Shown here one piece after another: positions 43,915 to 56,963 of a stretch of 64,000 nt of DNA (position 1 is the stretch's first letter; each line of letters begins with the position of its first letter). The stretch comes from Sandaracinus amylolyticus (GTDB lineage Bacteria > Myxococcota_A > Polyangia > Polyangiales > Sandaracinaceae). The DNA lies in NCBI RefSeq assembly GCF_021631985.1, contig NZ_CP070225.1:8370001-8434000 (forward strand), in the 5' to 3' direction. The position numbers were made by a program, and so were the translations under genes. Below the pieces are notes generated by a model, which worked only from the letters and a program-made list of their open reading frames with translations, was not told the origin of the DNA and did not search any database.

Positions 43915-45867
43915 TCAGCCGTCCTCTTCCGCGAGAACCACGACGCGATCGCCCGGCTTGGGCATGAACGGCGCCTGACGATTCATCGGGTTGAGCACCA
44001 GCCCGAACTTCTTCTCCGGCGCTTCCTCGTAGATCTGCACGCCCATCATCAGCTCGCCGCGCGCCTTCGCCGCGAGCATCAGGTACTCGATCGACACCGG
44101 CTGACCCGGCGGCGCGTAGAGCTCGATCGGCTTCACGTAGACCTCGCTGCCCTCGCTGCGCAGCAGGTCCTCGAGCACCGCCTGGACGCGCGGCTCGTAC
44201 GTGATCTGCGCGAGGACCATCGAGACCATCTCGTTCGAGATCACGATGTCGTTGATCTGCGTGGTCGCCGCGAGCTCGCGGTTCTTGGGGTCGAGGATCT
44301 CGCTGCACACCCGCTGGTTCGGCGCGAGCCCCGAGCGACGACGCGCATCGCGCAGGAGCAGCAGCGCGATGATCGCGCGGGTGTCCGCGTCCTCCGCGCT
44401 CGTCCCCTCGACCTGATCGCCGAGCACCATCACGAGCGGGTAGTTCTGCGGGCCGAGCTGGTCCATCAGGTGCCGGCTCGTGAACTGCCCGACGAGGTGT
44501 CGGAGCTGCACCGTCTTCACGTCGCCGACCTTCTCGCTGATCTCCGTGGCGCGCTCTTCCTCGGGCAGGTTGTTCACCAGCGTCAGCGTCGAGCCCGGCG
44601 CGACGTAGTCGTCGAACTCCTTGATCATCGGGTGGATCTTCGGGTTCCACCCGAGCACCAGCATGTGCTCGACGCGCTTCTGCGCGTTGGACTGCAGCAC
44701 CGGCATCGACGCGAGCGAGAGCGGACCGGCGTACGGCTTGTGCTGGACCGACGCGTCCTCCGCGAGGATCAGCAGCTCCTCGTCGGGCCCGATCACGTGA
44801 TCCGCCGGCGGGTTCAGGGTGTGCCCCGAGCCGTTCGCCTTCGCGATGCCGACGACCATGCCGTTCGGGAAGTCGAGCAGGATCTCGCCGAAGCGACGCC
44901 CCACCACCGGCGGGATCTTCTTGAAGTGGATCTCGTTGCCCTCGAAGCGCAGCAGCTCGTCGTAGACCAGCGAGAGGCCGCTGATGCGCGCCGTCTGCAG
45001 GATGATCTTCGAGATCATCTCGTTCGTCTTCACGACGCGCGCGCGGTGGTTGCTCGCGATGATCGCGAGCTCCTGGTTGTGCGACTGCATCACCTCCGCG
45101 GTCACGCGCAGGCCGTCGGTGCGGCCGCGCGCGTCGGGATGATTGAAGATCGCCATCAGCGTCTTCATGATCCGCGCGTCGGCCTTGTCGGGATCGTCGA
45201 CGTCGGCATCGTCGACCAGCACCACGATCGCCTGGGTGCGATCGAAGCTGACCTTGGCGAGATCGTTCAGCACGACGCTCGAGCCGGAGCGGACGACGAG
45301 CTTCACGCGGTGCTGGTACTGCACCTTGTCGTAGAGCTTCTCCTCCATCTCGACCTTGTCGCGCTCGGCCATCACGACGACGGTGATGCGGCCCTTGGGC
45401 GCGTAGGCCTCCGCGAGCTGGTCGATGACCGAGTAGATCTTCTCGCTCCAGCCGAGCACCAGGAAGTGCCCGTCCTCCATCACCGGCGCGCCGGTCTTCC
45501 GGATGTCCTCGAGCGCCTGCTGGAAGTTGCCGGCGAGCGCGGAGATCAAGAGGCCGGCGACGATGACGCCGAGGATCGAGGCGACGGTCGAGATCGCGCG
45601 GTTGCCGACGCCGCTGTCGCCGGTGAAGGTGCCCGAGTCGATCACGCGACCGAAGTAGAACCAGCTCACCTCGTAGGCGCGCTCGACGACGCTCCCGCTG
45701 AAGCCGTCCTCGATGCCGAGGCCGAGCACCAGCCCGACGAGCGTGAAGCCGACGACCAGCGCCATCGTGAGCACCGCGAGGAAGAGCAGCTGCTTGCCCG
45801 CGCCTCCGCCGATGAACTCGTTCGCCCGATAGCGGAGCTTCGCCCTGAACCCTCGCTCGATCGCCAT
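43915..45867 (-). CDS. CASTOR/POLLUX-type ion channel with RCK-like domains
   Basis: 650 residues. Two N-terminal helices (QLLFLAVLTMALVVGFTLVG; VASILGVIVAGLLISALAGN) flank a pore region with SGTFTGDSGVGNRAIS, similar to the plant CASTOR/POLLUX/DMI1 filter zone. Two tandem Rossmann regulatory units follow (HFLVLGWSEKIYSVIDQLAE at about 133; MLVLGWNPKIHPMIKEFDD at about 408), each ending in an RCK-C-like beta region. Bacterial members are thought to conduct cations under nucleotide or Ca control; selectivity is not predictable. ATG 45867; monocistronic. Confidence 0.85.
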   Translation of the reverse strand: MAIERGFRAKLRYRANEFIGGGAGKQLLFLAVLTMALVVGFTLVGLVLGLGIEDGFSGSVVERAYEVSWFYFGRVIDSGTFTGDSGVGNRAISTVASILGVIVAGLLISALAGNFQQALEDIRKTGAPVMEDGHFLVLGWSEKIYSVIDQLAEAYAPKGRITVVVMAERDKVEMEEKLYDKVQYQHRVKLVVRSGSSVVLNDLAKVSFDRTQAIVVLVDDADVDDPDKADARIMKTLMAIFNHPDARGRTDGLRVTAEVMQSHNQELAIIASNHRARVVKTNEMISKIILQTARISGLSLVYDELLRFEGNEIHFKKIPPVVGRRFGEILLDFPNGMVVGIAKANGSGHTLNPPADHVIGPDEELLILAEDASVQHKPYAGPLSLASMPVLQSNAQKRVEHMLVLGWNPKIHPMIKEFDDYVAPGSTLTLVNNLPEEERATEISEKVGDVKTVQLRHLVGQFTSRHLMDQLGPQNYPLVMVLGDQVEGTSAEDADTRAIIALLLLRDARRRSGLAPNQRVCSEILDPKNRELAATTQINDIVISNEMVSMVLAQITYEPRVQAVLEDLLRSEGSEVYVKPIELYAPPGQPVSIEYLMLAAKARGELMMGVQIYEEAPEKKFGLVLNPMNRQAPFMPKPGDRVVVLAEEDG

Positions 45868-46003
45868 CTCCCTCGGCCTCCGATCGACGTCGATCCCACC
45901 CCAGCGCCCGTCCTCGCGTCCAGCGCGAAAACGATACCCACCCGGTACTGGTGAGCGAGGTACGCGGAATCGCCGGGGATCCTCCCCGTCGCGCCCCGCG
46001 CGA

Positions 46004-47800
46004 TCAGAGCAAGGGGCGGCCTTCGAGCTCGGCGCGGAGGGCGGCGACGCGCGCCCGGATCGCGGCGTCGTCGATGCCGCGCGCCTGCAGCGCGCCGATG
46101 GTCGTCAGGGTCGCGTCCGCGTCGGCCGCCGCGCCCGCGCGGAGCACCGGCACCAGCGCGCCGAGCGCCGCATCGGAGAACGAGCCCGACTCGATCGAGG
46201 CCGTGATGCCGCGCATCGTCGCGCCGTCGAGCTCTTGCTCGGCGAGCGACGCGAGCGCGGCGTCCTGCACGTCGATCGTCGTGTCACGGGTGAGCTCGAG
46301 GAGGCGCTCGCGGGCGCGCTCGGTGCGGGTGCGCCCGAGGCCCCGCGCGACCGCGACGCGCACCACCGGCGCATCGTCGCGCGCGTGGCGCTCGAGGGAT
46401 TCGGTGTCGCGCGGATCGGCGGCGCTCGCGAGCGCGGTGATCCAGTGCGCCCGGCGCGCGGCGTCGGGCTCGCGCTCGAGGCGTGCGCCGAGCTGTGCGC
46501 GTGCGTCGTCGGCGGCGCGGGGATCGTGGGGCGCGATCCGGCGCGCGACGTTGCCCAGCGCGTACGCGGTCGCCATCTCGAACGTGGGATCGACGGGGTG
46601 CTCGAGCCGCGACGCGAGGTGCGCGGCGAGCTCGCTCGGCGGCTCGGGCAGGAAGGCCGCCCGCTCGAGCATCTCGCCCTCGAGCGCGGTGCCGAGCACC
46701 GCGGGGCTCTGCACGATGCGCAGGATCGCGTCGGCACAGCCTGCCTCCGCGAGGAGATCCAGGATGAGACGGCGCGCTGCGTCGGTCGCGTCGCTCGCCG
46801 CGAAGAGCGACTCCAGCTCGCGCGCCGACTCCGGATGCGCGCGCAGGTGACCCACGGCGCGCCACACCGAGCGCGCATGATCGGGCAGCAGACCGCCCTG
46901 ACCGTGGATCGCGATCAGGGTCGCGAGCTCCTCGCGCGTCATGCCCTCGGCCTGCGCCTCGTCGAGGCGACGCTCGAGATCGTCCGAGACGATCGGCTCG
47001 CCCGGCGCGTGGGCGATCGTGCGCGCCGGGGCTCGCAAGGTCGCGACGCGCGCGCCGGTGCGCGCCATCGAGAGGCGGGTGCGCACGCGCGCGTGGCGCG
47101 CGCCGTCCGCGCTGGTCCAGTCGATGCGCTCCTCGCCCTGCAGGCGCACGAGGCCCTGGGTGTCTTCTTGGATCCGTTGCTCGCCGTGCACCCGCGCGCG
47201 ATCGACGGGCTCGTCCTGCGCGACGTCGAGCAGCTCGTACGCGTCCCATCGCCGCACCCGCTCGCCGTCGTGCTCCTCGACGTGGCGGGCGACGATCCCG
47301 TGCGCGGTGCGCTCGCGCGTCGCGGTGCCGTGCTGCGACTCGAGCGCGAGGAGCTCGAGCAGGTGCATCGCGATCGGGCTCGTGCCCTCTTCGCGCTCGA
47401 AGCGCACGACGCTGCCGTGCTCGTCGTGCTCGACGACGAGCACGTGACCGGCGAGCGCCTCGCGCGCGGCGTCGTCCGACGCGAGCACGTGCCCACCGCC
47501 GATCCGCAGCTCGGCGCGCGCGACGTCGATCAGCGAGAGCGCCTCGCGCCGCCCTCCGAGCGGGCGCACCGCGAGCGTGCCCTCGAGATCGAGCACGCCC
47601 GCCTCGCCCGCGCCCTCGCCGAGCCGCTTGTCGTCCTCCTGGTGGAGCTCGACGCGATAGACGAGCTCGTCCTCGGGCGCATCGCTGCGCGCGGGACGCG
47701 TCGCGCGCGATTCGCTCGCGGCATCACGTGACGCGAGCCACGCGCCGAGCGCGGAGAGGACGAGGAGGACGACGAGACCGGATCGGACGGGGCGGGACAA
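46004..47800 (-). CDS. HEAT-repeat protein with vitellogenin-like N-terminal domain
   Basis: 598 residues from TTG 47800, preceded by CCAGGAG. A short signal/anchor helix (SGLVVLLVLSALGAWLAS) precedes a beta-rich domain (47-240: YRVELHQEDDKRL, VLDLEGTLAVRPLGGRREAL, then GSVVRFEREEGTS and AMHLLELLALESQ). Its order resembles the N-sheet of large lipid-transfer proteins. Residues about 300-598 are alpha-helical HEAT-type repeats (ARRLILDLLAEAGCADAIL; ALASLAEQELDG), again as in vitellogenin. It lies 14 bp downstream of the 978-residue secreted-protein gene, so same operon. Lipid transfer is inference. Confidence 0.65.
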   Translation of the reverse strand: MSRPVRSGLVVLLVLSALGAWLASRDAASESRATRPARSDAPEDELVYRVELHQEDDKRLGEGAGEAGVLDLEGTLAVRPLGGRREALSLIDVARAELRIGGGHVLASDDAAREALAGHVLVVEHDEHGSVVRFEREEGTSPIAMHLLELLALESQHGTATRERTAHGIVARHVEEHDGERVRRWDAYELLDVAQDEPVDRARVHGEQRIQEDTQGLVRLQGEERIDWTSADGARHARVRTRLSMARTGARVATLRAPARTIAHAPGEPIVSDDLERRLDEAQAEGMTREELATLIAIHGQGGLLPDHARSVWRAVGHLRAHPESARELESLFAASDATDAARRLILDLLAEAGCADAILRIVQSPAVLGTALEGEMLERAAFLPEPPSELAAHLASRLEHPVDPTFEMATAYALGNVARRIAPHDPRAADDARAQLGARLEREPDAARRAHWITALASAADPRDTESLERHARDDAPVVRVAVARGLGRTRTERARERLLELTRDTTIDVQDAALASLAEQELDGATMRGITASIESGSFSDAALGALVPVLRAGAAADADATLTTIGALQARGIDDAAIRARVAALRAELEGRPLL

Positions 47801-47814
47801 GGCGGGCTCCTGGA

Positions 47815-50751
47815 TCAGAACGCGTGCGCGAGGTCGTTCCAGCTCACCGCGTAGTCCCAGTGGACGAGCGCGGTGTCGACCGAGAGGCCCGGCCACGAGA
47901 GCATCGTGATCTCGGCGCTCTTCGAGAACGGGCCGATGCCGACCTCGGCGAACGCCGAGATCGATCCCGAGAGCGTCGTGAGGCGCAGGTCGGCGTTCGC
48001 GAGCACGCCGAGGTGCGGCACCGTCATCGGCGACGAGAGCACGTTGCCGAGGTACTCGCCGCCCGCGGGGATCTCGCGCTGCTCGAAGCCCGCGGTCACC
48101 GTCACCGGGAGCGCGAGGTCGAGCACCGTGAGGCGACCCTTGACGCCGGCGCGCGCGATCACGACGTCGACCGCGGCCGAGAGGAAGCCCTCGAGGCGCG
48201 CCGAGGGCGTGAACCCGAGCTCGATGCGCGGCACGTCGCAGGCGGGCGACGACGTGCGCGTGGTCCCCGCGAAGCCCTCGACCCCGACCGAGCCCGCGAT
48301 GCCGGCGCGATACGAGATCGGGATGCCGAGCACGACGATCACGCCGTGCGCGAGCGTGCTCTCGCGGCTCGCGCTCGCCGCCATGTTGCGCTGGGTGCCG
48401 TCGCTCGAGAACGACGCCGAGAAGACCTCGTTGCCGAGGATGCGCAGGTGGCCGCTGCTCGTGAGCGTGCTGACCTGTGCATCGACCAGCGAGAGGTCCG
48501 ACTTGAACACCGTCGCGGTCGCCGCGAACCCACCGAACGCGCGGAGGGGCGCGTTGCAGGTCGTCTCGCCCTGGCTGCCGCTCGAGAAGTACGAGCGCGA
48601 GAAGCGGCCGTCGCCGGTCGTGTTGAGATCGAACGTCGCCTGGTACTGGTATCCGAGCGCGAAGAGCGAGCGATCGCCGAGCGTGTTGCCGCCGCGGTGA
48701 TCGAAGCCCGGCAGGCGCACCTGGCCGTCGGCGCCGACGAGCTCGGGGCGCGTGCGGCGCAGGGCGTCGCGGATGCGCTGGCCCTGGCAGTAGCTCGCGA
48801 GCGCGAGCGACTGGGTGCGGCGGCGCAGGTAGCGCAGCGTCGCGGCGCTGTTGGTGCGCGGGTAGTGCCACTCGTTGGCGGGACGGAACATGCCGCGGTG
48901 GGTCTCGTCGGCGCCCGGGCACGAGACGTCGTTGTACGCGAAGACGAGCTCACGCGACTCGACGACCGAGTACGCGTCGTCCATCCCGGCGAGGCACGCC
49001 GCGTACTCCGCCTGTCGCTTCGCGACCATGTCGGGCACGTTCACGTCCTCGGCGAAGCGCGAGTACGAGACGTCGCAGGGACCGGGCACGTACTCGCCCG
49101 AAGGACCTTCGCGGAAGCAGCCCCAGCGATCCGCCTCCTCGAGGATCTCGCGGATGTCCGTGTAGATCGCCTCGCGCGCGGCGTTCGCGCGGCGCACGAC
49201 GTCGGCCGAGCAGCCCGCGCCGGTGCTCATCGTCGACATCGTGGTCGGGATCGACGTGCGCTCGAGCGCGCGCGTGACGCGGGGGATGCCGCCGATGCCG
49301 CCGATGCCACCACCGCCGCCGATGCCGCCGATGCCACCACCGATTCCGCCGATGCCACCGATGTTGCCGATGCCGCCGACGCCGTCGATCGGGCTCGTCT
49401 GGAGGAACGCGGGCGTGCTCACCAGCGTCGCGGTGGTGAGGTAGCCGCGATCGATCCGGCCGATGTCGAGCACCGACCCGGGCGCGCGGACCACGTCGCG
49501 CCATCCATCGAGCTCGCGCTCGAGCCCGCGCTGATCGTCGTGGGGCACGCAGACCACCACCGGCATCGCGGCGAGCGACTCGAGCGCCGACACGAAGCGC
49601 TGCTGCAGATCCCAGAGGTACTCGAGCTCCTCGGGCGAGTACCCGTACGCGCGCTCCGGGCTCCACACCGGCGCGATGCGCTGCATGGCCGAGGGATCGT
49701 TGCGCGTCGCGAGCGCCTCGACCTCGCGGTACCACCCGAACGTCGGCATCACGTCGTGGTCGCCCGCCGCGAAGCGCTGCACGTACGGGTACGTGCCTGC
49801 GCGCAGCACGGTCGCCAGCGTCGCGGTGTCGTAGGTGTCGAGCGTGTAGAAGAGATTGCGCGGGACGGCCGACGTCCAGAGCTGCCCGACCGGCCGCCCG
49901 TCGCGCGTCGCGAGCTGCGAGCCGTCGGCGTGGCGCGTGCCGATCGACGTGCGCGCGCTCGCGGCACCGTACGCGACGCTCCAGATCGTGCGCGGCTCGC
50001 TCGCGTCGCGGATCGCGTCGCGGAACACCTCGACGTCGTAGAAGCTCTCGTAGACGTACTCGGAGCACGAGCGCACGCCCTGCGCGTCGTACGCGTACCA
50101 GGGCTCGTGCCCCGGGCCGCCGAACATCGCCGGCACCGGCCGCTGGAACCCGGGCTCGTAGCTCGCCGCGTCGACCACCCGCGCGTCCTCGCGGACCTCG
50201 CGGGGCGGGAGGATCGCGACGCGCCGCGACGACGTCGTCCAGTCCGCGTAGGTCGTGCTCATGCCGTCTGCGCCGGGCGCGACGGCGTCGGTCTGGCGGA
50301 CGTCGGTCGCGAACGTGGTGCCGAGCGTGCGCGGCTCCATGCGCACTTCTTCGCGCATGCCGCTCGACGCGCGCACGCCGAGCGCGGCCTGCAGCGCATC
50401 ACACGGCGCGAGGCCGCCGCTCGACCACGTCCCGGGGGTGTGGAAGCAGCGACGCTCTTCGTCGTTCGCCGGCGGCGTGGTGCACTGCGCGATCGTCGGC
50501 ACGGACGGGCAGCCCGCGGGCACCACGATCGAGAGCTGCATCAGCTGGATGCACGCGCTGTCGCCGCGCACGAGCTGCGGCGCGATGCACGCGTCGAATT
50601 GCGGGCTCGACGTGCTGCACTGCTCGGCGTCGGTGGGCTGGGGGCAGCCGGGTGGAGCCCACTGCGCGACGGCAGCGGTGGGCGAGAGCGCGGCGAGGGC
50701 GACGAGGGTCGCGCCGCTGCCGCGGAGGAAGGATCTCGTGACTGGATTCAT
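47815..50751 (-). CDS. Large secreted protein of unknown function, partner of HEAT-repeat protein
   Basis: 978 residues. Signal peptide (SGATLVALAALSPTAAVAQ); N-terminal Cys-rich part (GCPQPTDAEQCSTSSPQFDAC). A large central domain contains SEYVYESFYDVEVFRDAIRD and AYGYSPEELEYLWDLQQRF. A Gly/Ile low-complexity linker (GIGGIGGGIGGIGGGG, encoded at 49284-49383) precedes a beta-rich C-terminal third (LTSSGHLRILGNEVFSASFS; GIAGSVGVEGFAG). No enzyme motif recognised. It is the first gene of the unit with the HEAT-repeat protein. Confidence 0.7.
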   Translation of the reverse strand: MNPVTRSFLRGSGATLVALAALSPTAAVAQWAPPGCPQPTDAEQCSTSSPQFDACIAPQLVRGDSACIQLMQLSIVVPAGCPSVPTIAQCTTPPANDEERRCFHTPGTWSSGGLAPCDALQAALGVRASSGMREEVRMEPRTLGTTFATDVRQTDAVAPGADGMSTTYADWTTSSRRVAILPPREVREDARVVDAASYEPGFQRPVPAMFGGPGHEPWYAYDAQGVRSCSEYVYESFYDVEVFRDAIRDASEPRTIWSVAYGAASARTSIGTRHADGSQLATRDGRPVGQLWTSAVPRNLFYTLDTYDTATLATVLRAGTYPYVQRFAAGDHDVMPTFGWYREVEALATRNDPSAMQRIAPVWSPERAYGYSPEELEYLWDLQQRFVSALESLAAMPVVVCVPHDDQRGLERELDGWRDVVRAPGSVLDIGRIDRGYLTTATLVSTPAFLQTSPIDGVGGIGNIGGIGGIGGGIGGIGGGGGIGGIGGIPRVTRALERTSIPTTMSTMSTGAGCSADVVRRANAAREAIYTDIREILEEADRWGCFREGPSGEYVPGPCDVSYSRFAEDVNVPDMVAKRQAEYAACLAGMDDAYSVVESRELVFAYNDVSCPGADETHRGMFRPANEWHYPRTNSAATLRYLRRRTQSLALASYCQGQRIRDALRRTRPELVGADGQVRLPGFDHRGGNTLGDRSLFALGYQYQATFDLNTTGDGRFSRSYFSSGSQGETTCNAPLRAFGGFAATATVFKSDLSLVDAQVSTLTSSGHLRILGNEVFSASFSSDGTQRNMAASASRESTLAHGVIVVLGIPISYRAGIAGSVGVEGFAGTTRTSSPACDVPRIELGFTPSARLEGFLSAAVDVVIARAGVKGRLTVLDLALPVTVTAGFEQREIPAGGEYLGNVLSSPMTVPHLGVLANADLRLTTLSGSISAFAEVGIGPFSKSAEITMLSWPGLSVDTALVHWDYAVSWNDLAHAF
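49284..49383. repeat. In-frame GCCGCCGAT-type tandem repeat
   Basis: About 100 bp of short GCC(G/A)CCGAT units that encode the Gly-Gly-Ile linker of the 978-residue protein on the minus strand. Unit order is irregular, so length variation between strains is likely. Confidence 0.75.
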
Positions 50752-50898
50752 GGGCTCGCTGGATGGCACGCGGCAACACGCCGCGCGGCGCCGCCAGCAC
50801 TCGCCGTGCCCCGAATCGACTTCGAGAATTCCAGGCAGAATCGCCCTCTCGCCGCACCGCGCCCAGTGGGCTGCCCACGGGCGTGCGCCCATCCCCGG

Positions 50899-51267
50899 TC
50901 AGCGGCTGTTGCAGAGTCGATCCACCTCGACGATCAGGTGATCCAGCTCGATCGGCTTCTGCACCCACGCCGACGCGCCGAGCTCGCGCGCGTGGCTCTC
51001 CACGTCGCGTGCGCCCGAGAGCACGAGCACCGGGATGCTCGCGAGCTCGGGGTCGGCCTTCTGCTTCGCGCGGAACTCCCAGCCGTTCATGCCGGGCATC
51101 ATCAGGTCGAGCAGCACCAGCCCGCAGTGCGATCCGTGCAAGCGCGCGAGCGCCTCCTCGCCGTCGCTCGCTTCGATCACCTCGAGGCCGTGGAGCTCGA
51201 GCGCGAGGCGCATCGCCTCGCGGATGTCGTCGTCGTCGTCGACGATGCAGACCTTGCACTGGCTCAT
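50899..51267 (-). CDS. Single-domain response regulator
   Basis: 122 residues, receiver domain only. The acidic pocket DDDDD is at 10-14, the phosphoacceptor Asp54 in VLLDLMMPGMNGWEF, the conserved Ser in VLVLSGA and the Lys in VQKPIE. It has no output domain, so it may act like CheY/SpoOF or as a phosphotransfer partner. The ATG overlaps the stop of the large histidine-kinase gene (ATGA), making that kinase its cognate. Confidence 0.92.
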   Translation of the reverse strand: MSQCKVCIVDDDDDIREAMRLALELHGLEVIEASDGEEALARLHGSHCGLVLLDLMMPGMNGWEFRAKQKADPELASIPVLVLSGARDVESHARELGASAWVQKPIELDHLIVEVDRLCNSR

Positions 51268-54200
51268 TCGGAGGTTTCCTCGCGAGGGGGACCGGCGAGC
51301 GGGAGCTCGACCGTGAACGTCGCGCCCTGATCGGGCTCGCTCTCCAGCGAGATGCACCCGCCGTGCGCCTCCACGATCACGCGCGTGATGAACAAGCCCA
51401 GTCCGAGGCCGCCGTAGTGGCGCGACGACACACCGCGCTGGAACGGCGCGAAGAGCCGCTCCTTCACCTCGCGCGGGATGCCGATGCCGCGGTCCCGCAC
51501 CTTGAGGACGGCGCGCTCGTCCTGGCGCTCGATCGTGACCTCGATCGGCTCGCCGCGACCGAACTTGATCGCGTTGGTCATCAGGTTCGTGACGACCTGC
51601 TCGATGCGCAGCGCGTCCCAGTGGCCGATCACCGGAGGCCCACCGACGTCGCTCGCCGCCGAGATCTGGAGCGAGCTGCCGGAGCGCGCGAGCTCGTCGC
51701 CGAGCAGTGTCGCGACCTCGCTCACCACGGTGTGGAGATCGACCTCGCCCAGTGTGAGCTGCAGGCGTCCTTCTCGGAACCGCGAGACGTCGAGCAGCAG
51801 CGTCACCAGCGAGGCCAGCCGGCGGATCTGCCGCTTGCTGACCGAGATCACGCGAAGCAGCGCGTCGGGCTCGACCATGCCCGAGAGCTGGAAGCGCAGC
51901 TCGAGGCTTTGCACCGCGAGCTGCAGGCTCGTGAGCGGCGTGCGCAGCTCGTGCGACGCGACCGAGAGGAACTCGTCGCGCATCCGGACCGCGGCCTCGG
52001 CGGCGGTGCGCGCGCGTTGCTCCTCGGCGAGCAGTCGATCGCGCTGCTCCTGCGCCTGCACCCGCTGCGTGACGTCGCGGAAGCTCCACACGCGCCCGAC
52101 GATCTCGCCGTTGAGGCGCTGGGGCTGCGAGTAGCGCTCGAACACGCGCCCGTCCTTGAAGCGGATCGTCTCGAGCCCGCTCGCGTCGGGGCTGCGATAG
52201 AGCTCGCGCACCCGCGCCATGAACTCCTCGGGCGACGCGAGCTGGTCGCGCACGTGCTGGAGCGCCCGGCGATCGTCGCGCGCCGTGAGGAGCTCCTCGG
52301 GCACCCGCCACATCGAGATGAAGCGCCGGTTGAAGCGCACGATGCGGCCCTCGGTGTCGACCACCAGGATGCCGTCGGCGGTGGACTCGAGCGCGGCCTC
52401 GACGAGCGACATCGAGCGCTGCAGCGCCTCGTGCGCGCGCTGGCGCGAGGTCACGTCGGTCGAGATGGTGCAGATCGCGGTGATCGCGCCGTTCTCGTCG
52501 CGCAGCGGGCAGCGCTCGGTGATGTACTGGTGCACGCCGTCGGCGTGGGGGATCACGTCGTCGGACTCGAGCACGCGATCCTCGCGCACCACCCGGCGAT
52601 CGAGCTCGCGCATCTGCTCCGCGACCGACTCCGCGAAGAGGTGCGCGTCGGTCTTGCCCACGACCTGCGCGGGCTCGAGCCCCACGAGCTCGGCGAAGCG
52701 ACGGTTCGCGAGCGTGAAGCGACCATCGAGGTCCTTCACGGTGATCAGCGCGGTCGAGTTGTCGAAGATCGCGTGCAGCAGCGCCTCGCGCTCCTGCAGG
52801 CGCGTCTCGGCGGCGCGCCGCTCCGCGTTCTCCTGGCGCAACCCCGAGTAGAGCCGCGCGTTCTCGAGCGAGACCGCGGCCTGCGAGGCGAGCACGTCGA
52901 GCACCGCGAGCTGCGACGCCGAGAACGCGCCGGGGACGAGATCGTTCTCGAGGTAGAGGATCGCGGTCGCGCGATCGTCGCGGAGGATCGGCAGGCACAA
53001 CACGCTGCGCCGCTGGCCCGCGGTGAAGTAGGGATCGAACGTGTAGCGGTGGGGGCCCGACGCATCGGCGATCATCACCGCCCGGCGCGTGCGCACCGCG
53101 GCGTCGCAGACCGAGAGCGGCAGGCTCGAGGCGCGGATCGGTCGATCGAGCTCGCCGAACGCGTTCGCGCCGTGCCCCCGCGCCGCCGCGAGGGCCAGGC
53201 CGTGCGCCGTGACGAGCGCGAGGCATCCGCGCTGCGCGCCCGCGCTCTCGACCGCGACCTCGAGCAGGCGCGCGTGGAGATCGGGCAGCAGCAGCGCGCC
53301 GGTGACCGCCTGCGACGCCTTGAGCACGCCCGAGACGTCGGGGCACTCGCGCATCCGCTCGTCGCGGCGCGCCAGCGCGGGCAGGGTGATCGCGAGCGCG
53401 TGCGCCTTCGCGCGCGCGCCCCAGAGCTCGTAGAGATCGTGCGCCTGCACGAGGTACGCGTCGGCGATCGTGTCGAGCCCGCGGCGACGGTGGAAGCGCG
53501 CGGCGACCTCGCACGAGATCGCCTCGACGTGGAGGATCCCCGCGGCGCGCGCGCCGCGCACCGCGTCCTCGTAGCCGCGCTCCGCGTCGAGCTCGCGGCC
53601 CTCGACCCGCGCGATCTCGGCCGCGATCAGCGCGGCGCGCGGACCGAACGTCTCGGCCTGACTGTCCGCGAGCGCCTCGAGCGCCTCGAGATCGTCGCGC
53701 ACCGCGACCGGCACCCGCGCCGCGCCGTCGCCCTCGTCGGGCTCGCGGTCGGTCGGGCTGTCGAGCACCGTGGTGTCGGCGAGCGCGGCGTAGAAGCGGC
53801 ACTCGGGCACCAGCAGGAACCCCAGCACCGCGCCGAGGCGCGCGCGGGCGCGCGCCGCCGCGATCGCCGCGCCCTCGTAGTCGCCGCGCAGGTAGCGCGC
53901 GACGAGCTCGTGGAACGTGCGGTGGAATTGGTCGGCGTCGCGCTCCGCCGCGACCAGCGGCTCGCGGGGCACGACCGCGGTGCCGCCGCGCACGAGATCG
54001 ATCATGCGGAGGCGGCTGCGCATCGACGTCACGACCGAGGGCGCGCCGCTGCGATCGGCGAGCTCGAGCGCCTCGTTCGCGTCGCCCGCGACCTCGTCGA
54101 GGGGATCGCCCGCGACCAGCCGGAAGTCCGCGATGTGCTTGGCGTGGAAGCTCGCGTAGGTGAGATCGCCGCTGATCGTCGCCGCGGCGAGCTCGCGTCG

Positions 54201-56963
54201 CATCAGCTCCACGCAGCGCCGCAGCGGGAGCTGCAGGTACGAGATCAGCGAGGTGAACCCGAAGGTCGCGCGCGCGCGGTGCAGCGCGTGCTCGGGCCGC
54301 TGGGCGAGGCGATACGTGCCCTCGGCGATCGAGAACGCATCCGCGTAGCGTCGCCGGCGCACCGCGAGACCGAGCGCGAACGCGGTGAACGCGCCGAGCG
54401 AGCTCGACGTCATGCCCTCGCGCAGCGCGATCTCGACGCCACGGCACGCCGCGAGCCACACGAGGTTCCAGTCGTGGTAGCTCGCGGGTGTGATCAGCGC
54501 GACGAGGAGCTCGGACGTCGCGCGTGCCTCGTCTCTCACCGGCGCGTCGCGCGCGAGCGAGAGGATCGCGAGCGTCGGGTCGGGGCCGAGCGTCTCGAGC
54601 AGCGCGTCGTACGCCGCGTCGACCTCGGCCTCCCTCGGGTGCTCGGGCAGGTCGACGTCGAGCGCGCGCAGGCCCTCGAGGCAGGTCGCGGTCGCCTCGC
54701 TCATCGCGCCCCGCACCAGGCGCGGCTCGGCGAGCAGCGTGTGGGCCGCCGCGAGATCGACGCGGGTGCGCGCGCGCTTGGTGAGCGCGACGCAGAGATC
54801 CTCGGACGCCGCCAGCTCGCCGATCAGGAAGCGCGAGCGCGCGAGCGAGAGCTGGAGCTCGAACGCGAGCGCGTAGCGCTGCTCCCAGGGATCCTCGCCG
54901 AGCAGCTCGATGCCCCGCACCAGGAACGCGATCGCGGCGCGCCCGTCGTTCGACGCACGCGCGGCGCGCCCGGCGAGCAGATCGAGGTACGCGGCCTGCG
55001 CGCGCTCCTCGGGATCGCGCAGCAGCGGGGCCGCGAGATCGAAGTGCCGCACGATCTCGAAGATGCGGGTGCCGACCTTGTCGGGCGGCGTCCGCGCGAG
55101 CAGCGCGCGACCGGTCTCGAGGTGCAGCGCGAGCCGCTCGGCGTGCGGCGTGAGCTCGTACGCGGTCTGGTGCACGCGATCGTGCAGGAAGCGCAGCTCG
55201 TCGCCGATGCGCGCGAGGAGGCGTGCCGAGATCGCCTCGGCGAGCTGCGCGAGCAGCTCGCTCTCCGAGCAACGCAGCACGATCGAGAGCGTCGCGAGAT
55301 CGGCCGAGGGACCGTGCACCGCGAAGCGCCGCAGCGCATCGCGGGTGCCCGGCGAGAGCGTCGCGATGCGCGAGGCGATGAGGTCCGCGACGTCGTCGGA
55401 GTACGGCTTGGCGCGGATCGCGTCGAGATTCCACTGCCAACCCTTCTTCGCGTCGTCGTAGCGGATCAGGTCCTCGGCGTAGAGCGAGTCGAGGAACTGC
55501 GCGACGAAGAGCGGGTTGCCGCCGGTGCGCTCGTGCACGCTCACCGCGAGCTCGCTGACCTCGTCGGGCCGGCGCCGCAGCACGTCCCCGATCCATCGCG
55601 CGACCGCGTCCTGCGAGAGCGGGCGCAGCGCGATCGCGACGGTGTCGACGCCGCGCTCGCGCAGCCGCGCGCCCATCGCCTCCACCGGGGTCGTGGGGCC
55701 TCGCTCGATCGTGCGGTACGCCGCGATGATCAACAGGTGGTGCGCCTCGAGCGCGGTCGCGACGTGCTCCAGGACCTTGAGCGTGCCGGCGTCGGCCCAA
55801 TGAAGATCGTCGAGGAACAGGACCAGGGGATGGGCCTCGGTGGCGAGCACGCCGAGATAGCGCGCGAGCGTCGTGAGGAAGCGACGCTCGGCCTCGCGCG
55901 CCGGCGCCTCGGCGGGCGGCGTGCGCTCGCCGAGCAGCTGCGCGAGGTCGGGCAACCGCGAGATCAACATCGGTGCGTGCAGTCCGAGCGCCTCGTCGAG
56001 CCGCGATCGCAGCTCGTCGTGGGTCCACGCGTTCGACTCGAGCGCTGCGGCGAGCAATCCGTCGAGCGCCTGGAACGCCGCGCGCAGCGGCTCGCGGTCC
56101 GATCCCGCGTCGCACTTGCCCGCGGCGAAGAGCGCGCCGTGCAGCATCGCGACGCGCCGCGCGCGATCGACGAGCGCGCTCTTGCCCGACCCGGTCGGTC
56201 CCGAGACGAGCACGACGCGCGGGCGGTCCTCGAGCGACGTGCGCTCGAGCGCGGCCGAGATGCGCTGCAGCTCGTCGTCGCGCCCGTGGAGCATCGCGGT
56301 CAGGCGCGGCAGCGGCGGGCGATCGGCGCGCCCCGGCTCGAACACCTCGACGACGCCGCGGGTGTGCCAGCTCTCGAGGCAGCGCATCAGATCGTGCTGC
56401 AGCCCCGACGCGCTCTGGTAGCGATCCTCGGGCGCCTTCGCGAGCAGGCGCAGCACGATGCGCGAGAGGGTCTCGGGCACCGCGGGCACCAGGACGTGCG
56501 GCGGAGGCGCGGGGATCGCGACGTGCGCGTGGATCCATCCCGGCAGATCCGCCGCCGAGAACGGACGACGTCCGGTGAGCAGCTCGAAGAGGATGATCCC
56601 CAGCGAGTAGAGATCGCTGCGCTGATCGATCTCGATCGCGAGCCGACCGGTCTGCTCGGGCGAGAGATACGGCCACTGGCGCGAGGGCCACGGGCGCCAC
56701 GCGACCGGCCCGCGATGGGGCGGCGGCGGGAAGGGCGTGCCGAGATCCACCACGTCGCCCGCGTGCACCCGCACGTCCTCGGCGTGCAGGCGCAGGTGCA
56801 TCACGCCGCGCGCGTGCAGCGCGTCGAGCGCGTCGGCGAGCTTCACCGCGAGCGTCAGGAAACGTCCGAGATCGATGCGCGAAGCCGCGATGCGGGCGAG
56901 CGACACGTCCTTCGCCTCGCGGGCGACCACGACGCGTCCGGGCTGGGTGCTGCTGTCCAGCAA
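51264..56963 (-). CDS. Giant sensor: pseudokinase - ATPase - GAF - PAS - histidine kinase
   Basis: 1,899 residues from TTG 56963, preceded by GAGGGGGA. The N-terminus is a Ser/Thr-kinase-like C-lobe (LADALDALHARGVMHLRLH; SDLYSLGIILFELLTGRRPF), but HRD reads HLR, DFG reads DLG and the N-lobe is missing, so a pseudokinase. An AAA-16 ATPase follows, with Walker A GPTGSGKS (255-262) and LVLFLDDLHWAD (about 380-391). Then come a long helical region, GAF (about 1225-1390), two PAS domains (about 1391-1495, 1511-1628), HELRTPLTSLQL (phosphoacceptor His, about 1670) and HATPase (NLMTNAIKFG, GIGIPREVKERLF, GLGLGLFITR). This fusion type is common in myxobacteria and cyanobacteria. Confidence 0.85.
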   Translation of the reverse strand: MLDSSTQPGRVVVAREAKDVSLARIAASRIDLGRFLTLAVKLADALDALHARGVMHLRLHAEDVRVHAGDVVDLGTPFPPPPHRGPVAWRPWPSRQWPYLSPEQTGRLAIEIDQRSDLYSLGIILFELLTGRRPFSAADLPGWIHAHVAIPAPPPHVLVPAVPETLSRIVLRLLAKAPEDRYQSASGLQHDLMRCLESWHTRGVVEVFEPGRADRPPLPRLTAMLHGRDDELQRISAALERTSLEDRPRVVLVSGPTGSGKSALVDRARRVAMLHGALFAAGKCDAGSDREPLRAAFQALDGLLAAALESNAWTHDELRSRLDEALGLHAPMLISRLPDLAQLLGERTPPAEAPAREAERRFLTTLARYLGVLATEAHPLVLFLDDLHWADAGTLKVLEHVATALEAHHLLIIAAYRTIERGPTTPVEAMGARLRERGVDTVAIALRPLSQDAVARWIGDVLRRRPDEVSELAVSVHERTGGNPLFVAQFLDSLYAEDLIRYDDAKKGWQWNLDAIRAKPYSDDVADLIASRIATLSPGTRDALRRFAVHGPSADLATLSIVLRCSESELLAQLAEAISARLLARIGDELRFLHDRVHQTAYELTPHAERLALHLETGRALLARTPPDKVGTRIFEIVRHFDLAAPLLRDPEERAQAAYLDLLAGRAARASNDGRAAIAFLVRGIELLGEDPWEQRYALAFELQLSLARSRFLIGELAASEDLCVALTKRARTRVDLAAAHTLLAEPRLVRGAMSEATATCLEGLRALDVDLPEHPREAEVDAAYDALLETLGPDPTLAILSLARDAPVRDEARATSELLVALITPASYHDWNLVWLAACRGVEIALREGMTSSSLGAFTAFALGLAVRRRRYADAFSIAEGTYRLAQRPEHALHRARATFGFTSLISYLQLPLRRCVELMRRELAAATISGDLTYASFHAKHIADFRLVAGDPLDEVAGDANEALELADRSGAPSVVTSMRSRLRMIDLVRGGTAVVPREPLVAAERDADQFHRTFHELVARYLRGDYEGAAIAAARARARLGAVLGFLLVPECRFYAALADTTVLDSPTDREPDEGDGAARVPVAVRDDLEALEALADSQAETFGPRAALIAAEIARVEGRELDAERGYEDAVRGARAAGILHVEAISCEVAARFHRRRGLDTIADAYLVQAHDLYELWGARAKAHALAITLPALARRDERMRECPDVSGVLKASQAVTGALLLPDLHARLLEVAVESAGAQRGCLALVTAHGLALAAARGHGANAFGELDRPIRASSLPLSVCDAAVRTRRAVMIADASGPHRYTFDPYFTAGQRRSVLCLPILRDDRATAILYLENDLVPGAFSASQLAVLDVLASQAAVSLENARLYSGLRQENAERRAAETRLQEREALLHAIFDNSTALITVKDLDGRFTLANRRFAELVGLEPAQVVGKTDAHLFAESVAEQMRELDRRVVREDRVLESDDVIPHADGVHQYITERCPLRDENGAITAICTISTDVTSRQRAHEALQRSMSLVEAALESTADGILVVDTEGRIVRFNRRFISMWRVPEELLTARDDRRALQHVRDQLASPEEFMARVRELYRSPDASGLETIRFKDGRVFERYSQPQRLNGEIVGRVWSFRDVTQRVQAQEQRDRLLAEEQRARTAAEAAVRMRDEFLSVASHELRTPLTSLQLAVQSLELRFQLSGMVEPDALLRVISVSKRQIRRLASLVTLLLDVSRFREGRLQLTLGEVDLHTVVSEVATLLGDELARSGSSLQISAASDVGGPPVIGHWDALRIEQVVTNLMTNAIKFGRGEPIEVTIERQDERAVLKVRDRGIGIPREVKERLFAPFQRGVSSRHYGGLGLGLFITRVIVEAHGGCISLESEPDQGATFTVELPLAGPPREETSE

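Follow-up and report, generated by a model that had tools for sequence, protein, structure and literature searches.

The question raised by this locus is whether a bacterium can encode, in two adjacent genes, a lipid carrier of the kind represented in animals by the LLTPs (vitellogenin, apoB and MTP). Excerpted text of PMC1783640 describes the LLTPs as animal lipoprotein assembly proteins, and excerpts of two other papers give the order of the animal proteins as a barrel, helices and then the sheets that form the cavity (PMC9219001, PMC7444587). Among open-licence PMC papers, the titles and the opening lines of the abstracts contain no report of a bacterial vitellogenin-like protein or LLTP. 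The genes studied here are located in the 11 Mb genome of Sandaracinus amylolyticus, within a stretch of 64,000 nucleotides that was analyzed as a whole (the window; GC content 71%). The upstream gene (47815..50751, minus strand, ATG start) encodes an exported protein of 978 amino acids, the partner. It is followed, after a gap of 14 bp, by the gene of a HEAT-repeat protein (46004..47800, minus strand, TTG start, 598 amino acids), which we regard as a bacterial LLTP N-module composed of a signal anchor, a beta barrel and a helical domain. The two genes are probably cotranscribed, judging from the 14-bp gap and their conserved adjacency.

An initial annotation of the nucleotide sequence had proposed that the HEAT protein starts with a beta domain followed by helical repeats, an order that parallels vitellogenin, apoB and MTP. 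Both open reading frames were found as it described them, and its five motifs occur in the order given: YRVEL (residues 48-52), LDLEGTL (70-76), LSLIDV (88-93), GSVVRF (129-134) and LLELLALES (147-155). The structure of the HEAT protein was modeled with AlphaFold2 from a 12-sequence alignment (mean pLDDT 85.4). In the model, an anchor helix is followed by three long strands, by more strands with a helix at residues 142-154, and then by helices at residues 273-593. The first four motifs fall on predicted strands (45-60, 66-82, 85-100 and 131-137, respectively) and LLELLALES falls on the 142-154 helix. The N-terminal beta domain (residues 45-264; 47009..47668, minus strand), which includes this helix, is predicted to be an LLTP-type barrel. 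It is followed, as in the LLTPs, by a HEAT-like helical domain (residues 273-593; 46022..46984, minus strand) identified by Pfam, the predicted model and Foldseek. Ahead of the barrel, a hydrophobic stretch (residues 5-23; 47732..47788, minus strand; mean hydropathy 1.96 over 19 residues) is probably an uncleaved signal anchor. A similar stretch is present in nearly all the HEAT relatives and is weak in L089. The HEAT proteins open with some basic residues and then a hydrophobic segment that shows no obvious site of cleavage, features that suggest an inner-membrane anchor.

Comparison of the HEAT model with the PDB using Foldseek placed LLTPs (MTP, lipovitellin, apoB and bee vitellogenin) at all of ranks 1-11, with E values from 7.3e-14 for MTP, the best match, to 3.2e-8 for bee vitellogenin at rank 11. 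The match at rank 12 was a designed HEAT protein (E 2.1e-5). The VIA-align rows hold part of the LLTPs, and no absence was read from them. In these rows, residues 35-271 alone aligned with the apoB barrel 9bd8_A with Z 17.6 (rmsd 5.4, 230 residues), and the whole protein aligned with lipovitellin with Z 16.9 over 520 residues (rmsd 10.3) and with MTP with Z 15.6 over 514 residues (rmsd 14.7). The top of the list was taken by designed HEAT proteins (Z 19.9), which covered the helical half only. The high rmsd values suggest a different angle between the two domains or a different arc of the helices. As modeled, the HEAT protein matches the LLTPs in its domains and in their order, not as a rigid body. 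The proposed parallel was borne out by these predicted structures, including the fold comparison with lipovitellin. Instead of an unrelated beta sandwich joined to generic HEAT repeats, one of the two outcomes that the annotation had named as contrary to its idea (the other being a predicted fold without a lipid cavity), the LLTPs led the Foldseek results ahead of the designed HEAT proteins. No cavity is present in the N-module by itself; animal LLTPs have theirs in the C-terminal half, to which the partner gene apparently corresponds here.

Searches with the window HEAT protein alone returned no LLTP. Against Pfam, only HEAT_2 was over the cut-off (E 6.7e-8) and there was no match to Vitellogenin_N (PF01347), whose curated cut-off of 24 bits was not reached. 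Across Pfam, NCBIfam and the PDB, only HEAT-type matches were obtained besides chance-level rows, and a search for related loci with the single window protein found nothing. A PF01347 scan of the host genome gave no match either; its control also gave none, and the scan carries no weight. Detection of the LLTP signal therefore needed family profiles and structure. An identity as a PBS-lyase or phycobilin lyase was considered and rejected, since the NCBIfam equivalog cut-offs were missed (20.9 of 275 and 19.6 of 220 bits).

A 26-member family profile (alignment A1, comprising 25 of the 38 fetched loci and the window) found lipovitellin in the PDB with an E value of 1.2e-8 across the barrel and the helices, and MTP with 9.1e-6; designed HEAT proteins outscored the LLTPs on the repeats. 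Loci left out of A1 were L067 and L074 (truncated), L072, L085, L090, the short L091/L092/L094 that have no barrel, L093, where a partner alone was present, and L095-L098, whose HEAT matches were weak or short. Alignment A6 had 25 rows (L087 was dropped), and A3 had 7 rows, a chosen close subset. When the N-domain profile was used alone, lipovitellin was the sole PDB match, but its E value was only 0.33. The profile of the helical stretch located ahead of the generic repeats matched lipovitellin (2.3e-5) and MTP (5.1e-4); in the same search these ranked behind or among designed HEAT proteins, the best of which reached 6.2e-6. The family motif ALGNAGxP aligns in register with ALGNAGQP of lipovitellin and ALKNALLP of MTP, where the residues include L477 and N479 in 8eoj numbering. 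The Asn of this helix-10 motif (ALGN/ALKN) is kept in 24 of the 26 rows of A1 and in 15 of the 15 rows of A8. The window protein belongs to the two rows of A1 that lack this Asn; its sequence at this position (46412..46435, minus strand) is ALASAADP, with the conserved Asn replaced by Ser.

Vitellogenin_N was matched by 14 of the 26 family members at E values up to 1 (best 2.8e-16). When ten members were scanned singly, two were over the cut-off (L061, 25.4 bits; L088, 59.7 bits), with matches in the helical part. All ten proteins of another set, nine from loci found by the PF01347 scan plus L088, were over it, and these matches also lay mostly in the helical part. The match of L138 spans profile positions 53-556 (2.6e-18), and that of L139 was the best (1.9e-19). 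A profile of 15 relatives of this kind found lipovitellin with 1.7e-10 and MTP with 5.4e-6 over chain residues 109-507; designed HEAT proteins scored above the LLTPs with this profile too. The aligned HEAT members share 18-31% identity with the window protein. Since the window protein is under the PF01347 cut-off and some of its relatives are over it, it is a divergent LLTP-fold relative and not a vitellogenin. The homology of the HEAT protein to the LLTPs is well supported. The anticipated sequence link to the vitellogenin N domain is thus present in the family profile and in the relatives that pass Vitellogenin_N, not in the window protein taken singly.

The pairing is more than a chance pattern, given its conservation across the phylum. 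In a sample of 329 genomes, the HEAT protein was matched in 33 and the partner in 38, some of these being short generic matches. The N-terminal-domain profile found matches in 53 of 311 genomes, belonging to 42 of the 206 genera sampled, and eight of the 53 genomes carry three to five matches. A scan of the phylum with PF01347 gave matches in 26 of 329 genomes, 17 of them over the curated cut-off, at 30 places. Of the 10 genomes in the host's family, this one alone carries the pair.

Of 28 N-domain loci, 21 have the partner immediately upstream, no more than 400 bp away, and two have it directly downstream (L086, L088); at three the HEAT gene starts at a contig end, and two have no partner (L061, L090). 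The partner is therefore upstream at 21 of the 25 testable loci, plus the two with reversed order. The partner profile used for this count was built from alignment A5, which included seven of the 21 loci with an upstream partner (L119, L120, L123, L124 and L127-L129). The 30 Vitellogenin_N places, four of which are also among the 28 N-domain loci, were counted in full. The partner is adjacent at 21 (18 upstream, two downstream and one convergent) and 1.2 kb upstream at one (L172); two places are at a contig end and six have no partner. The six partnerless places match the HEAT family only in generic repeats or not at all. One of the 21 adjacent partner matches, that of L149, is weak (E 2.3e-4). 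The partner loci at the further Vitellogenin_N places had no part in the A5 profile. When other neighbors were compared by BLAST (2183 of 2390 ORFs), the largest other cluster included 12 loci and was identified as a Ser/Thr kinase by one scanned member; Ser/Thr kinases are a common family in such genomes.

Several loci depart from the usual arrangement. L091 (7709-9022), L092 (6908-8380) and L094 (7567-8763) have short relatives of 373-384 amino acids with the partner gene upstream; these proteins keep the hydrophobic start and the HEAT part and have no beta barrel. In L142 (7447-12219), the HEAT gene and the partner homologue are convergent and do not form one operon. The HEAT/LLTP-like gene of L061 (5353-7218) has no adjacent partner, and the divergent gene upstream of it looks like an M13 metallopeptidase. 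A partner homologue is located 11 kb away, with no HEAT gene detected beside it.

The partner starts with a Sec-type signal peptide (residues 1-30, ending in AVA-Q; 50662..50751, minus strand) recognized by sequence and hydropathy, which is probably cleaved off. Its helical region (residues 406-667; 48751..49536, minus strand) was modeled with low to moderate confidence, and a Gly-Ile-rich stretch of low complexity is apparent in the sequence at residues 457-490 (49282..49383, minus strand). The C-terminal domain (residues 684-970; 47842..48702, minus strand) is predicted to consist mostly of strands, which reach 24-29 residues at their longest and are proposed to be the sheets of a lipid cavity. 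The partner model is weak, with an overall pLDDT of 49.4; within the beta domain most values are about 50-79, and some stretches fall below this range. The initial annotation had described a secreted protein rich in beta strands. The signal peptide and the predicted beta structure of the last third agree with this description, but the middle of the protein is helical or of low confidence.

Neither Pfam nor NCBIfam gave a match to the window partner. In Foldseek, ranks 1-3 were MTP (1.2e-4), MTP (1.5e-4) and lipovitellin (1.7e-3), with probabilities of 0.98-1.00. Among the 50 matches listed, the rest had probabilities of 0.23 or less, except MTP 8eoj at rank 7 (0.82). In VIA, residues 406-968 aligned with residues 449-877 of MTP, which comprise its late helices and lipid-binding domain, with Z 8.0 over 247 residues; outer-membrane proteins tied with MTP (Z 7.9, 112-129 residues). 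PF09172, the vitellogenin open beta-sheet, was the only Pfam family matched by more than one of 32 partner members at E up to 10. It was matched by four of them, the best at 0.002, below the cut-off, and by one of ten partner domains scanned singly (E 0.19). A PF09172 scan of the 329 genomes gave eight weak places in seven genomes (E up to 0.05). All of them were under the cut-off, and none coincided with a place listed in the partner genome search. Partner profiles A5 and A7 found no LLTP in the PDB, and their matches to apoA-I (E 3 or worse) and colicin (0.025) were taken as chance. No VWD or open-sheet match over the Pfam cut-offs was obtained for the window pair, nor for the open sheet in the partner family.

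These predicted structures provide moderate support for a resemblance between the C-terminal domain of the partner and the cavity half of the LLTPs, and they make the cavity reading plausible independently of the HEAT result. The partner was brought in only by its adjacency, yet its three best Foldseek matches are to MTP and lipovitellin, which fits the idea of a two-part system. The N-termini of the partners vary widely, including Cys-rich repeats and a Gly-rich tract, and their ORFs range from about 300 to over 3000 amino acids, whereas the length of the HEAT gene stays similar across loci. In L138-L141, L143 and L144, the partner ORF (300-395 amino acids) encodes hardly more than the C-terminal beta domain, which therefore seems to be the constant part. 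Where the start of a partner is intact, its signal looks cleavable, and that of L127 is lipoprotein-like. The partners of L127 (1317-5105) and L128 (1393-5073) have N-terminal Cys-rich CGDGxxDxGExCD repeats, and one of them has a lipobox-like start.

We propose, with a probability of roughly 0.68, that the pair is a split, two-gene bacterial LLTP in which the partner supplies the cavity in trans and cargo is carried outward. The formation of a complex, its localization, its cargo and the direction of transport are envisaged as follows. The HEAT protein, with its N-terminal beta barrel and helical module, would reside in the periplasm on its N-terminal membrane anchor. The exported partner would provide in trans the beta-sheet lipid cavity that is part of the same chain in animal LLTPs, and the helical module would pack on the sheets of the partner and close the cavity. 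The complex would then pick up a hydrophobic cargo, lipid or pigment, at the inner membrane and release it to the outer membrane or to the outside, in the way MTP loads apoB. Where a genome has several copies, these might serve different cargoes.

One of the closest known systems is the MTP large subunit (6i7s, 8eoj). It shares with the HEAT protein a barrel followed by a helical domain (Foldseek 7.3e-14) and with the HEAT family the ALGN/ALKN motif in register, and its residues 449-877 align with partner residues 406-968. According to the excerpted text of PMC7444587, MTP combines a single chain with PDI, and its lipid site is in the C-terminal domain of MTP. The bacterial version, in contrast, consists of two genes with export signals, with the proposed cavity gene first. 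A Pfam scan of the immediate neighbors in the window found no PDI-like gene among them. Lipovitellin and vitellogenin (1lsh, 9ens, PF01347, PF09172) share the 520-residue alignment with the HEAT protein, the family profile match of 1.2e-8 and the relatives over the PF01347 cut-off. Vitellogenin, however, is a single chain with the N-module, the open sheet and VWD, whereas the bacterial pair consists of two chains with no VWD match. The N-terminal region of apoB-100 (9bd1, 9bd8) has the beta barrel in common (Z 17.6, 230 residues) but continues for several thousand further residues that the bacterial module of 598 amino acids does not have.

A different role for a true LLTP homologue would be that of a chaperone or docking factor, in which the anchored module folds or exports a surface or matrix partner and no lipid is carried. 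Widely varied partner N-termini are expected of surface proteins, and the HEAT gene is steady in length beside them; moreover, MTP itself is termed a chaperone of apoB-lipoprotein biosynthesis in the excerpted text of PMC3337244. Nonetheless, the part of the partner recovered across loci is the beta domain, several partners contain little else, and this domain resembles the LLTP cavity half in Foldseek. We consider this role unlikely. Another reading takes the C-terminal domain of the partner for an outer-membrane beta barrel, with the HEAT protein as its periplasmic partner. The many outer-membrane barrels listed by VIA (Z 6-7.9), the long strands and the Phe at the end of the window partner fit such a barrel. 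However, Foldseek probabilities for matches of this kind are 0.23 or less among the 50 matches listed, compared with 0.98-1.00 for the top LLTPs, the residue at the C-terminus varies among relatives (I, M, Q, G, P or E), and the predicted strands reach 24-29 residues, which is longer than typical barrel strands. An outer-membrane barrel is accordingly quite improbable. A generic HEAT scaffold beside an unrelated beta domain, its LLTP likeness being superficial, was already disfavored and has very little chance of being correct: designed HEAT proteins do top the sequence scores and the VIA results (Z 19.9) and the Pfam Vitellogenin_N matches lie mostly in the helical part, but the Foldseek E value of the top LLTP is lower than that of the best HEAT protein by more than eight orders of magnitude, and even the last of the eleven LLTPs leads it by nearly three. 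In addition, the barrel by itself reaches Z 17.6 against apoB, the Vitellogenin_N match of L138 extends over positions 53-556, and barrel and helices come in the same order.

If the pair is indeed a two-gene LLTP, an animal-type lipid carrier would also exist in bacteria, as two pieces. Its loading module and its lipid cavity could be purified separately and mixed, providing a simple system, and the pair would point to an unrecognized way of moving lipid or pigment through the periplasm of bacteria. Such a pair would also be relevant to the origin of the LLTP superfamily. A tentative extension, which we think has somewhat less than an even chance, is that such two-gene carriers, with barrel and helices on one membrane-anchored chain and the lipid cavity on a second, exported chain, form a widespread family in myxobacteria and that the ancestor of the animal single-chain LLTPs arose from the pair, or shares an origin with it, by gene fusion.

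The site of the pair is empty in G008, a genome of the same genus, which has one short HEAT-only match and no pair. There, in L162 (1388-1423), 34 bp replace positions 45992..50908 of the window, a stretch of 4917 bases that includes both genes along with the final 10 bases of the response-regulator gene. The flanking DNA is 94.5% and 93.7% identical between the two genomes, and the Castor/Pollux-type channel protein and the response regulator on either side are 98% identical to those of the window. When about 100 bp were compared at each junction, no shared repeat longer than 7 bp was found; therefore, no mobile-element mechanism is claimed. The two genes were gained or lost together, and the two genomes fit either direction. 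The Castor/Pollux-like ion channel protein (RCK domain; 43915-45867) adjoins the pair, and copies of it that are 72-98% identical occur in three genomes of the host family without the pair. On the other side, the response regulator (50899-51267) comes after a hybrid sensor of 1899 amino acids (51264-56963) with Ser/Thr-kinase-like, AAA, GAF, PAS and histidine kinase domains.
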